Assembly: GCA_030059665.1 (NCBI GenBank)
Contig: JANVYR010000001.1
Coordinates: forward strand, 337,368-401,367
DNA length: 64,000 nt
Direction: 5' to 3'
Source: Candidatus Calditenuis fumarioli
GTDB lineage: Archaea; Thermoproteota; Nitrososphaeria_A; Caldarchaeales; Calditenuaceae
Positions 28,080 to 51,525 of this stretch are shown here, one piece after another. Positions within the stretch are counted from its first letter, which is position 1. Each line of letters begins with the position of its first letter. A model generated the notes under the pieces. It was not told where the DNA came from. It saw nothing but the letters and a program-made list of their open reading frames with translations, and searched no databases. A program made the translations under genes and the position numbers.

Positions 28080-28679
28080 CTAAAACCTCTGCGAAGTGGA
28101 CCTTGGTCGGATCACCAGCTTGATCATACCCCGAGAGACGGTCTGGTTGATCACGTCGATCCCGTAAACGTTAAGCATCTCCCTCGCGGCCACGGATACG
28201 GCCTCCGTCGTCTCCACGGAATCCCCCACACCGATAACCGATATCTCGAGCCCGTCCTTCCCCAGCTCCCTCAGCTCGACGCGCTTAAGCGGGAAGAAGT
28301 ACGAGAAGAGCGCCGCGAGGCTCACGAGTTCCTCGAAGCTCGGGGCGTACGTCTTCATCAGGAGGCCGACGTCCCTGCCGAGCTGGCTGAAGAGGGAGAA
28401 GAGCCTTTTCCGGTCGTGGGAGTAGAGCTCCTTGATCAGCGCGTCCATGAAGTAGGAGGGGAGAACGACGGCGTCCGCATCCCTCAGGACCTTGTAGACC
28501 TTCCAGAGGTTGGAGATGATCGCGTCGCTCCCGCTCTCCCGGACGACCTGTATCCCCTGCTCGAGGATGGACGAGGCGAGCGCGTAGACGGACATCTTCC
28601 TCTCCTTCGCCAGCTCCGAGAGCTTCTCGGCCACATCACGCCTCACAGCGAGCGTGGTCCTCCCTTTGCTGGAGTCCAA
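28080..28679 (-). CDS. Uncharacterised protein with a ribbon-helix-helix-like N-terminus
   Basis: 199 residues. The opening TTLAVRRDVAEKLSELAKERKMSVYALASSILEQGIQVV looks like a ribbon-helix-helix DNA-binding unit (one strand, two helices). The remainder is an alpha/beta region I do not recognise (FSLFSQLGRDVGLLMKTYAPSFEELVSLAAL). It may be a regulator that senses a small ligand through the C-terminal part; this is inference. TTG 28679 directly follows AAGGAG, and GATAAACAC about 40 bases upstream may be the TATA box. Confidence 0.65.
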   Translation of the reverse strand: MDSSKGRTTLAVRRDVAEKLSELAKERKMSVYALASSILEQGIQVVRESGSDAIISNLWKVYKVLRDADAVVLPSYFMDALIKELYSHDRKRLFSLFSQLGRDVGLLMKTYAPSFEELVSLAALFSYFFPLKRVELRELGKDGLEISVIGVGDSVETTEAVSVAAREMLNVYGIDVINQTVSRGMIKLVIRPRSTSQRF

Positions 28680-48481: not shown

Positions 48482-48555
48482 TTCCGGTCGCCGGAACCGT
48501 TCTAACCGTTCCGAACGGATCTGACCAGCGGATTGGCAGGTTCTATTCCAGAACC
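48482..48555. promoter_or_regulatory. Three clustered palindromes before a TATA box
   Basis: Within 74 bases: TTCCGG-TCG-CCGGAA at 48482-48496, CCGTTC-C-GAACGG at 48506-48518 and GGTTCT-ATTCC-AGAACC at 48539-48555. All three are perfect. The last abuts CTTATC at 48557-48562, a TATA-like element 28 bases before ATG 48588. The 277-base gap (48311-48587) holds no gene I can support. They look like operators for the surface-protein gene, possibly bound by the winged-helix protein encoded after it. Confidence 0.55.
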
Positions 48556-48587
48556 CCTTATCACGGGCCACGAAGCGCTGTTCACCG

Positions 48588-49496
48588 ATGAGCTCGGTCA
48601 GGGCCTGGACCGCTGTGGCGCTGGTGCTGATGATGCTAGCAGGGGTAATTCCGTTGGTGCTGGCGCAGGAGGGGAACGGCGAGGAGCAGGAACTTCCTCC
48701 AGGGCTCGCGATCACCTCGGAGCTCAGGGCGATCATCGAGGAGCACCGGGAGGCCGTTCAGTCGGTGATCCTTGAGTTCCGGATGAAGCTCGAGAACATC
48801 ACTGAGAGGAAGACGGAGCTGATACGGACCTACCTCGAGGAGAGGGTCAACAGGACCGAGGCGATAAGGGAGGAGATGGAGAGGCTGAGGCGGTTGTTCG
48901 AGGCCGGCAACCTGACCAGGGAGGAGTACCTGGTCCAGCTCAAGGCCCTTCAAGACCAGCTGAAGGCGCTGAACAAGGCATCCGAGAAGCTGGGTCATCT
49001 GATCCAGGACCTCGTGAAGGAGCTGAAGGACGCGGTCAAGGAGAAGGTCGAGAGGCTCAGGGAGATCAACAGGGAGTTCGGCAGGAGGGTCTCGGAGGAG
49101 GCAAGGAAGATCGGAGAGGAGATGAGGGAGAGGGCCCGAGGGAGGGAGGAGACGGAGGGAGGAACCGGCACAACGACGACCAACCAGACATCAACGGCCC
49201 ACGGTGAGAGAGGTCAGAGGGGACGCGGAAGGGGCAACCCGCACTCCGAGGGCACCTCCACCTCAACCGGCACAGGCTCCGGTGACGACCATGGGAACGG
49301 ACGCGGAAGGTCAACGGTCACAACGACCACCACGACCACCACCGGCAACGACGCGGGCTCCGATCAGGGTCACGGACGAGGCAGGGGCAACGGAGGAGGG
49401 GGCGGTGAGGATCGGGGGAACCACGGTCGCGGCAACGGCCAGAACAACGGAAGAGGCGATGGTGACGAACGCGGTGGAAGAGGACGTAACGGATGA
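48588..49496 (+). CDS. Secreted coiled-coil protein with low-complexity Thr/Gly/Arg tail
   Basis: 302 residues. Signal peptide at about 1-26 (AWTAVALVLMMLAGVIPLVLA). Residues about 40-190 are heptad-like and charged (HREAVQSVILEFRMKLENITERKTELI, REEMERLRRLFEAGNL, LKALQDQLKALNKASEKL). Residues about 190-302 are low-complexity: runs of Thr (TTTTTTTT), and repeated GRG, HGRG and NGR units. No catalytic domain is visible; a cell-surface or extracellular filament role is likely. Leaderless from CTTATC 28 bases upstream. It precedes, in the same direction, the membrane-anchored regulator. Confidence 0.75.
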   Translation: MSSVRAWTAVALVLMMLAGVIPLVLAQEGNGEEQELPPGLAITSELRAIIEEHREAVQSVILEFRMKLENITERKTELIRTYLEERVNRTEAIREEMERLRRLFEAGNLTREEYLVQLKALQDQLKALNKASEKLGHLIQDLVKELKDAVKEKVERLREINREFGRRVSEEARKIGEEMRERARGREETEGGTGTTTTNQTSTAHGERGQRGRGRGNPHSEGTSTSTGTGSGDDHGNGRGRSTVTTTTTTTTGNDAGSDQGHGRGRGNGGGGGEDRGNHGRGNGQNNGRGDGDERGGRGRNG

Positions 49497-49530
49497 GCTA
49501 AATCCCAGCTGGGCTGAGCGGCCGTAGCGG

Positions 49531-50448
49531 ATGTCGCCGATCGCGCTGGCGCTGCTCGCACTCGTGGTAGCGGGTCAGGGAACCCCTCTGACGGTTTACC
49601 AGATACAACTCAGGGCCGATGGCTCTGCGATATGGACGGTGGAGCACCGCTACCCGCTGGGGGACCAAGTCTCGTCGCAGCTCTTCGAGCAGGCGAGCAA
49701 GTCCCTTGAGTCCTACGCGACCGATTACGGCAACCGACTGGCGTCGCTCGTGGGCAGGATCTCCGAGCAACTGGGGAGACCCATGTCCGTGGAGGGGCTC
49801 AACGTCACCGCACGGGTCGTCGAGACTCTGACAGGAAGGGTCGGGACCATCAGGGTGGAGTTCACCTGGATCGGCTTCGCACAGACTCACGAAGACGGAC
49901 GACTGGAGGTCGGCGACGTCTTCATCGGCGGATTGGTCCTTCTGGAGGGCGAGTCGCTCAGGCTCGCCTTTCCACAAGGGTACGAGACCATCAAGGTCGC
50001 ACCCAACCCCGACGCATCGGGGCCCTCGTTCGTCGAGTGGGGTGGGAGGAGGGTCTTTCCGGACGGCGAACCCTACGCGCTCCTAGCACCCGCATCACCT
50101 CACTCGGGGCCGGCATCTGGACCTTCGGGTTCGACGGGGCGGTCCGCATCCTTTGTCGACCCGTGGACCATCATCCTCTTCGCGGCTCCAACGATCTCGG
50201 CCGTTGTAGCTGCGCTGCTCTGGACACGACGTAGAAGCAGGCCCTCGCCCCAGTGGACCTCTGACGAGGTAGGCGCGGTGCTCGAGGTGATCCGGAGGTA
50301 CGGTGGCACGGTGACGCAGTCGAAAATCGTCAGGGAGACGGGCCTCTCCAAGTCAACGGTCAGCACGGTGCTGAAGATCCTCGAACGGGAGGGCGTGGTC
50401 GCCAGGCAGAAGGCCGGCCGGGAGAAGCTGGTCCGACTGCTCAGGTGA
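49531..50448 (+). CDS. Membrane-anchored winged-helix regulator with an extracytoplasmic domain
   Basis: 305 residues. Signal-like segment at 1-17, extracytoplasmic domain about 18-190 rich in strands (VYQIQLRADGSAIWTVEHRY, RVEFTWIGFAQTHED) with two Asn-X-Thr sites, Pro/Ser linker, membrane helix about 211-231, then cytoplasmic winged helix at about 244-305 (LEVIRRYGGTVTQSKIVRETGLSKSTVSTVLKILEREGVV). This layout is the archaeal DUF7345/DUF7343-type group of membrane-bound transcription factors. ATG 49531; the gene begins 34 bases after the secreted coiled-coil gene, likely co-transcribed or coupled. Confidence 0.82.
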   Translation: MSPIALALLALVVAGQGTPLTVYQIQLRADGSAIWTVEHRYPLGDQVSSQLFEQASKSLESYATDYGNRLASLVGRISEQLGRPMSVEGLNVTARVVETLTGRVGTIRVEFTWIGFAQTHEDGRLEVGDVFIGGLVLLEGESLRLAFPQGYETIKVAPNPDASGPSFVEWGGRRVFPDGEPYALLAPASPHSGPASGPSGSTGRSASFVDPWTIILFAAPTISAVVAALLWTRRRSRPSPQWTSDEVGAVLEVIRRYGGTVTQSKIVRETGLSKSTVSTVLKILEREGVVARQKAGREKLVRLLR

Positions 50449-50532: not shown

Positions 50533-50898
50533 ATGCCGATTAAGGTCGCGATCGTCGGGCTCTTCCCCACGGTCTTCTCGACGAGGTGCAAGGCGGTCTG
50601 TGATCCTGCAGGCGTCGCTGGACTCAGGACGCTCGAGGCGCAGCTCTCCGAGTACCCCGAGGTCGTCAGGGCTGGGGTGAAAGCGGTCACCGACGCCGTC
50701 AGCGAGCTCATCAGGTTCTTCCCCGATCTGCAGGTGGAGCTGGTCCACGCGATGAGCCTGAAGGGCCTCGCGCTATCGGTGCGTCACCGACTCCGGAGCG
50801 GGACGTATGCGGTATTCGCAGGTAGGGCCTTCGCATTGCCACATCAGCTGGAGGAGCTCATCGAGTCCGTTGAAGGCGCCCTGGCAAACCGAACATAA
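50533..50898 (+). CDS. Hypothetical protein with an early CxxxC pair
   Basis: 121 residues. VAIVGLFPTVFSTRCKAVCDPAG has a CKAVC pair soon after a strand, which could form a disulfide or metal site; the remainder is helical (EYPEVVRAGVKAVTDAVSELIRFFP) and ends with ALPHQLEELIESVEG. It may be thioredoxin-like, but I do not recognise a family. AACACTAATC lies about 30 bases before ATG 50533. It stands between the regulator gene and thiW, with a 51-base gap to the latter. Confidence 0.55.
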   Translation: MPIKVAIVGLFPTVFSTRCKAVCDPAGVAGLRTLEAQLSEYPEVVRAGVKAVTDAVSELIRFFPDLQVELVHAMSLKGLALSVRHRLRSGTYAVFAGRAFALPHQLEELIESVEGALANRT

Positions 50899-50949: not shown

Positions 50950-51525
50950 ATGACAGCGCGGAACGAACCCTCCCGGACCGTGGCGCTGATCGTCGCCCTA
51001 TCGGCTCTAGGACTGGTTCTGGCGCCGTTCTTCTGGTTCCCGTTCCTGGGAACGAGGGCCTTCCCCGGTCAGCACCTGGTCAACGTCCTCTCGGGTATCC
51101 TGCTGGGGCCGATCAGGTCCATCCCGGTACCGATCGTCGTGGGGACGATCCGAATAACGCTCGGCATCGGGACCGTCTTCGCCTACCCCGGCGGCATACC
51201 GGGGACGATAATGGTCGGCCTGGTCCACAGGTACGTGACCAGCAGGTTCAGGGATCCAAGGCTGAGGTATCTGTCGGCGTTCGCGGAGCCGATCGGAACC
51301 GTGCTCATCGGAGGGACTATCTCGCTGCTCGTGATAGGGCCATTGCTCGGCGTCAGGAGCATACTCGACCTGCTCTCGAGGGAGACGCTCGTCGCGGCCC
51401 TCCTCACCTTCTGGTCGGGCTGGGCCGTGAGCTCGGTGACGGGTTCCGCGATCGGATACGTCGTCTCGTTGGTTCTGAGCAGGGCTCTACCCGAACTCTT
51501 CAGGTCCCTCGAGGCTTCGAAATGA
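50950..51525 (+). CDS. thiW: ThiW, S-component for a thiamine precursor (ECF transporter)
   Basis: 191-residue membrane protein with about six hydrophobic segments. The motif PGQHLVNVLSGILLGP, and GTIRITLGIGTVFAYPGGIPGTIMVGLVHR, are characteristic of ThiW, which binds hydroxyethylthiazole for thiamine synthesis in ECF systems. No EcfA/EcfT genes adjoin; a set lies at 6980-9430. TTAAATG about 33 bases before ATG 50950 may be the promoter. It overlaps the next gene by 4 bases. Confidence 0.88.
   Translation: MTARNEPSRTVALIVALSALGLVLAPFFWFPFLGTRAFPGQHLVNVLSGILLGPIRSIPVPIVVGTIRITLGIGTVFAYPGGIPGTIMVGLVHRYVTSRFRDPRLRYLSAFAEPIGTVLIGGTISLLVIGPLLGVRSILDLLSRETLVAALLTFWSGWAVSSVTGSAIGYVVSLVLSRALPELFRSLEASK

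Follow-up and report, generated by a model that had tools for sequence, protein, structure and literature searches.

The window (the whole 64-kb stretch of DNA that was analysed, from a genome of 1.57 Mb, G000) contains two genes, A and B, in head-to-tail arrangement with a gap of 34 bp. Gene A is preceded by a promoter region with short repeated boxes and three palindromes. The features are as follows.

48482..48496, no strand assigned: palindrome 1, TTCCGG-TCG-CCGGAA; present, overlaps the outermost box of the array, absent from orthologous promoters.
48494..48526, + strand: candidate operator array of RAAC-type boxes (GAAC 48494-48497, TAAC 48503-48506, GAAC 48513-48516, GACC 48523-48526).
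48498-48526, + strand: conserved core of the array, CGTTCTAACCGTTCCGAACGGATCTGACC, from an ungapped promoter alignment.
48506..48518, no strand assigned: palindrome 2, CCGTTC-C-GAACGG; lies within the array and corresponds to its GTTC-C-GAAC part.
48539..48555, no strand assigned: palindrome 3, GGTTCT-ATTCC-AGAACC; its right arm falls on the BRE position and adjoins the TATA-like box.
48557..48563, + strand: TATA-like box CTTATCA, 25 nt before the start codon of A.
48588..49496, + strand: gene A, 302 aa; secreted helical-hairpin protein (ORF, AlphaFold2 model, hydropathy, composition).
48699..49157, + strand: conserved helical hairpin within A, aa 38-190, turning at AGNLTREEY (alignment of A homologues, AlphaFold2 model).
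49531..50448, + strand: gene B, 305 aa; predicted membrane-bound one-component transcription regulator (ORF, Pfam, model with pLDDT 82.6).
49600..49983, + strand: DUF7345 extracytoplasmic domain of B (aa 24-151); PF24036, 84.5 bits at a cut-off of 27.5, E 9.5e-24.
50161..50229, + strand: membrane-spanning helix of B at aa about 211-233, with RRR after it on the inner side; from hydropathy, helix 222-235 in the model.
50275..50439, + strand: winged-helix DNA-binding domain of B (aa 249-303); PF24034 (DUF7343), 52.6 bits at a cut-off of 27.6, E 4.3e-14.

The product of gene A starts with a hydrophobic signal segment, TAVALVLMMLAGVIPLVLAQ (aa 1-26, hydropathy). The AlphaFold2 model is a single long helical hairpin of high confidence (helices aa 38-105 and 111-190). 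The C-terminal part (aa 191-302) is a disordered tail rich in glycine, threonine, arginine and asparagine; the composition, counted over 116 residues, is G 37, T 21, R 14 and N 10. No match at E<=0.001 was obtained in a fold search against the PDB, nothing convincing was found in the PDB by sequence, and periplasmic helical families of the Spy/CpxP/CnrX type were not matched in Pfam or NCBIfam, weak matches included. The A family extends to one haloarchaeal protein that matches DUF7096, a domain of haloarchaeal secreted proteins; the A of the window has no DUF7096 match in Pfam. The Methanocellales homologue (L247) scores below the Pfam cut-off, and the haloarchaeal member L285, encoded divergently to a DUF7345-winged-helix gene, scores above it (33.9 bits, cut-off 27).

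The product of gene B has a short hydrophobic segment at the N-terminus and a disordered linker between the DUF7345 domain and the membrane helix. Curated Pfam cut-offs are passed for both PF24036 and PF24034, and the winged helix is also matched by MarR_2 (E 1.2e-8). It resembles MarR-type domains in the PDB fold search; by sequence, B finds only winged-helix entries of the PDB. FMO antenna proteins, the top PDB fold matches of B, were rejected as spurious (TM-scores about 0.2). The layout fits a DUF7345 domain outside the cell and a DNA-binding domain inside. The first-pass annotation had described a secreted coiled-coil protein with an extreme low-complexity tail and a regulator acting from outside to inside: the former is borne out by the signal segment, hairpin and Gly/Thr/Arg-rich tail, and the predicted topology of the latter is supported by the DUF7345 domain, the one membrane helix and the DUF7343 winged helix. 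In one Pelearchaeum genome (G019:C9 96252-97199; L012, L131) gene B has an in-frame TAG between the membrane helix and the winged helix, and B of the sister genome G023 is intact at this place; the TAG is either a sequencing error or a sign of separate chains.

The pairing of A and B, whose conservation had been put forward as a check, is kept in related genomes. Full-length B is present in 17 of 44 genomes of Caldarchaeales and is adjoined by A in 17/17, a count that includes one genome (G034) with the link inferred across two contig ends. The gene order is A-B in most genomes, B-A in Pelearchaeum (G019, G023) and convergent in G012. Neighbouring genes vary (by ORF reading: ribose-5-phosphate isomerase-like, xanthine-dehydrogenase-like, SLC13-type carrier in the window); since both they and the gene order differ among genomes, the pair is kept as a unit. 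It is absent from the incomplete genus mates of the window (G001-G003) and from G004 and G005. Among named genomes, a search with an alignment as the query (B of the window alone gave none) found relatives of B in Calditenuaceae (HRbin02, SKYB103), Caldarchaeum subterraneum, Pelearchaeum and Geocrenenecus, which makes Caldarchaeales the very probable order of the source. In a sample of 398 genomes of the phylum, DUF7345 is present in 38 overall; of the 27 genomes in which A is strong (E<=1e-15), 26 have it as well.

With the profile of A, genes adjoining B were also found in Brockarchaeota (f10), Bathyarchaeota JdFR-04, Thermoproteota B14 and Methanocellales; those found in Archaeoglobi and two haloarchaea are diverged. 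In the latter two groups the cluster holds a third gene, for DUF7345 without a winged helix. In f19 it is the B adjoining A that lacks the winged helix, and a complete paralogue of B is encoded elsewhere in the genome. The f19 proteins beside A, which end after the membrane helix, are as follows.

L102:3462-4439, genomes G064/G085: DUF7345 protein; complete paralogue in L101 or L104.
L103:2206-3189, genomes G064/G085: DUF7345 protein; complete paralogue in L101 or L104.

Partner type follows the tree of B: the labels require 5 changes, where shuffled labels need 16.4 on average. The coil partner (A) is found basally, or nearly so, in several clades whose other members have switched partner, a pattern that points to A as the older partner of B but does not prove it. 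On the tree the coil partner of Bathyarchaeota JdFR-04 contrasts with the f5 type, that of Methanocellales with the DUF5667 type, and that of Natrinema with haloarchaea that have no partner. A secreted helical protein of the DUF5667 type directly precedes B in Methanoperedens, Methanoregula and Methanocellales (L254, L259, L264, L271, L247), the assignment being by Pfam match in L247, L254 and L259 and by resemblance in L264 and L271.

Upstream of A, the last three boxes of the window (48503, 48513, 48523) follow one another at 10-bp steps. Ten orthologous A promoters from two families align without gaps as YGTTNRAACNGTYNNRAACNNTNNTGANC, with 10 invariant columns. With one promoter taken per genus, a sense-strand AAC pair at exactly 10 bp is present in 9/9 lineages. 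In this set, 19 sense-strand AAC pairs are spaced by 10 bp, 9 by 20 bp and 6 by 30 bp; distances other than multiples of 10 mostly give 0-4, and pairs at 10 bp on the antisense strand number 0. RAAC pairs at 10 bp number 16, against a mean of 0.34 and a maximum of 3 in 2,000 dinucleotide shuffles. Such a pair occurs in 16/18 A promoters and in 4/221 other upstream regions of the same loci (p about 2e-19), and triples occur in 7/18 and 0/221, respectively. The stretch from roughly 10 to 45 bp ahead of the TATA-like box is taken up by the array. The sequence CTTATC/CTTTTA is found at the matching place in orthologous promoters, and the distance of the box from the start codon is consistent with a leaderless A transcript. 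In G012:C3 the same array is present twice before A, at 28228 and 28455, 227 bp apart.

Curved DNA typically shows 10-bp phasing, and short A runs are seen in the arrays of AT-rich relatives, so that a structural element (intrinsic curvature or chromatin placement) might be considered in place of a sequence-specific operator. This is very improbable: the boxes of GC-rich genomes are GAAC/TAAC and have no A-tracts, letters besides A are also invariant, and the boxes are strand-specific and tied to B loci.

Three perfect palindromes had been noted before the promoter and proposed as the operators of the regulator. They are present, and their clustering is rare: in 75-nt windows tiled over the 64 kb at a step of 25, three such palindromes are held by 0 of 2,557 windows and two by 17. 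Palindrome 2, moreover, overlaps conserved positions (GTT..AAC). Yet the clustering is not the conserved property. Palindrome 1 is not kept in orthologous promoters, which have TTCTAnTCTAGGAA at the place of palindrome 3, without a perfect palindrome; the invariant columns are arranged as a direct repeat with a 10-bp period, and the antisense count is nil as given above. The comparison of orthologous promoters put forward in the first-pass annotation thus finds an upstream element kept, though it is the direct RAAC array and not the palindromes. Binding of B dimers to three separate palindromic operators is accordingly most doubtful.

A leave-one-out matrix, built from nine other species with the site of the window left out, ranks 48498-48526 first of 127,944 window positions with a score of 17.0; the runners-up score 5.1 (reverse strand of the same site) and 2.0. 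Motif model R1, whose training included the site of the window, hence the separate leave-one-out test, finds this array and nothing else at E<=1 across G000. Throughout f1/f4, its matches are essentially confined to the A promoter. Strict triples are not enriched in a genome scan of most f1/f4 genomes, the reason being frequent degeneracy of one box. Second R1 sites in G008 and on contig 7 of G012 lie inside genes and were rejected as chance.

The array follows A where the gene order changes, and it follows B where A is replaced. In the B-A layout (G019, G023) it is located between the genes, before A and not before B; in the convergent layout (G012) it is located before A only. A-B pairs with arrays are also found in Methanocellales (L247), Bathyarchaeota JdFR-04 (L250) and Thermoproteota B14 (L289). 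In f5, f38 and f56, B occurs without A, and a secreted protein of about 265 aa is encoded divergently beside it; f5 loci also have a gene for a cohesin-domain protein next to B. The same 10-bp array lies between B and the divergent gene, reading towards that gene, at 11/11 of these loci, with triples at 10/11; in other upstream regions there, pairs occur in 4/66 and triples in 1/66. Methanoperedens and most haloarchaea gave no array in the vicinity of B. The divergent secreted proteins (L109-L120) carry the motif SWIRINGxIxxWG; no Pfam match was obtained for the one member scanned.

In two genomes, G012 and G015, the array motif serves more than the A/B pair, as far as its placement tells. Strict triples number 14 and 15, against 1 and 1 for the reversed pattern; some 8-10 further sites in each genome are nearly all intergenic, and several are conserved between both genomes. 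These arrays (L171-L187) precede type IV pilin-like, cohesin-type, V4R-like, transglutaminase-like and other genes, one of them for a membrane winged-helix paralogue, and constitute a possible surface regulon. G015 is without DUF7345 by PF24036, yet its arrays are kept. A paralogue of B could be the reader of the array in G012/G015 and in f19.

The reader might instead be another DNA-binding protein, not the linked B, with the array as a general operator of envelope genes and with A, B and other surface genes as its targets. The arrays before pilin-like, cohesin-type and other genes in G012 and G015 would fit this, as would f19, in which the array precedes A though the linked B has no DNA-binding domain; there an unlinked DUF7345-winged-helix protein or another factor must read it. 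However, the f19 genomes do hold a second DUF7345-winged-helix protein, and one of the array-bearing genes of G012/G015 itself encodes a membrane winged-helix protein. In addition, the motif is essentially confined to the A promoter in the genome of the window and other f1/f4 genomes, the extra R1 site of G008 being intragenic, and the array stays beside B when A is replaced. A reader other than the linked B is therefore unlikely, although better placed than the two explanations above.

B is probably the reader of the array. Arguments for this are the position of the array before A and not B in the B-A and convergent layouts, its presence beside B at all 11 loci with another secreted partner, and the near confinement of the motif to the A/B locus in f1/f4; the f19 array and the further arrays of G012/G015 stand against it. 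On comparative grounds, A and B are likely to form a surface-sensing unit in which B reads the RAAC array and changes, most likely raises, transcription of A. B would be a type I membrane protein with DUF7345 outside, one helix across the membrane and the winged helix inside. A row of B molecules would occupy a single face of the double helix immediately ahead of the BRE/TATA of A, where three to four RAAC boxes recur at each helical turn (10 bp). Sites one turn apart present the same DNA face, which suggests an arrangement suited to membrane-held readers. Bound B would alter, most likely raise, transcription of secreted A, and in the A-B gene order would also regulate its own. By analogy, activation is more likely than repression, since the array is located where the archaeal activators EarA and ArnR bind, upstream of the BRE. 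The DUF7345 domain would sense the state of the envelope, possibly through contact with the hairpin of A, giving a feedback loop; an action of A and DUF7345 on one another is suggested by their lasting linkage even where the winged helix is gone, and would resemble that between bacterial membrane regulators and their partners. The regulator would thereby adjust what the cell shows on its surface.

More tentatively, the unit may be an ancient one of two archaeal phyla, Thermoproteota and Halobacteriota, composed of a secreted helical protein, a DUF7345 sensor and a tethered winged helix on a one-face, one-turn array, with the bound copies facing the membrane. The partner would have been replaced in some lineages, with the regulator persisting, and the array persisting in Thermoproteota. 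If so, the operator code could be read directly from genomes.

Membrane-bound one-component activators of surface structures are known from Sulfolobus acidocaldarius (ArnR and ArnR1); ArnR has an N-terminal HTH, HAMP, a sensor domain and two C-terminal membrane helices, and its operators are two boxes, inverted repeats TCGAC-N5-GTCGA, located between about -43 and -84, upstream of BRE/TATA and both needed for binding (PMC6396743). B shares with ArnR the archaeal membrane-bound one-component layout and repeated boxes upstream of BRE/TATA. It differs in the outside DUF7345 domain, the single internal membrane helix and the C-terminal winged helix, and the window has direct RAAC repeats at 10 bp; TCGAC-N5-GTCGA boxes are not present upstream of A. 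EarA of Methanococcus/Pyrococcus is a winged-helix activator of a surface-structure operon; its box, A(C/G)(C/G)TACA(T/C), occurs in as many as three or four copies immediately before the BRE (PMC10665913, PMC5512572). Short repeated boxes adjoining the BRE on its upstream side are common to both systems; the boxes of the window are RAAC and not of the TACATA type, and a membrane anchor, an outside domain and a linked secreted partner are not described for EarA in the passages compared.

Bacterial ToxR/ToxS and TcpP/TcpH are pairs in which a neighbouring gene encodes an extracytoplasmic partner of the membrane regulator. The A/B pair differs from them in the domains on both sides of the membrane, and no search made relates the hairpin of A to a known protein. 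Transmembrane transcription regulators (TTRs), those of the bacterial pairs included, join a DNA-binding domain and a membrane helix in a single polypeptide and are an established class (PMC10269533). B likewise carries both a winged helix and a membrane helix; only the A/B group has the phased array. In the openly accessible literature searched, no description of DUF7345, DUF7096, the A/B pair or the array was found. Membrane-bound one-component regulators and repeated boxes upstream of the BRE (EarA) are already known.

Known operators exist for few archaeal membrane-bound regulators. With the A/B unit come an operator code open to testing, a partner gene and swaps of partner that occurred in nature, all in uncultivated archaea with surface regulation otherwise little charted. 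The one-turn spacing suggests a simple geometry, in which a membrane-tethered reader needs sites on one DNA face. Haloarchaeal homologues make genetics possible.

After the pair, the window contains a 121-aa protein without a family match (50533-50898) and a ThiW-type transporter (50950-51525; TIGR02359, 112.8 bits), neither with a sign of belonging to it. Small membrane winged-helix proteins with a Met/Cys-rich loop of the MCPMC type (L218:1024-1476, which is G000:C3 about 77723-78175; L219, L224) were found by profile A1 and set aside, as their outside part differs. The L218 protein is encoded beside a cupredoxin-like gene in G000, has relatives in most Caldarchaeales, and is possibly a metal-responsive membrane regulator.
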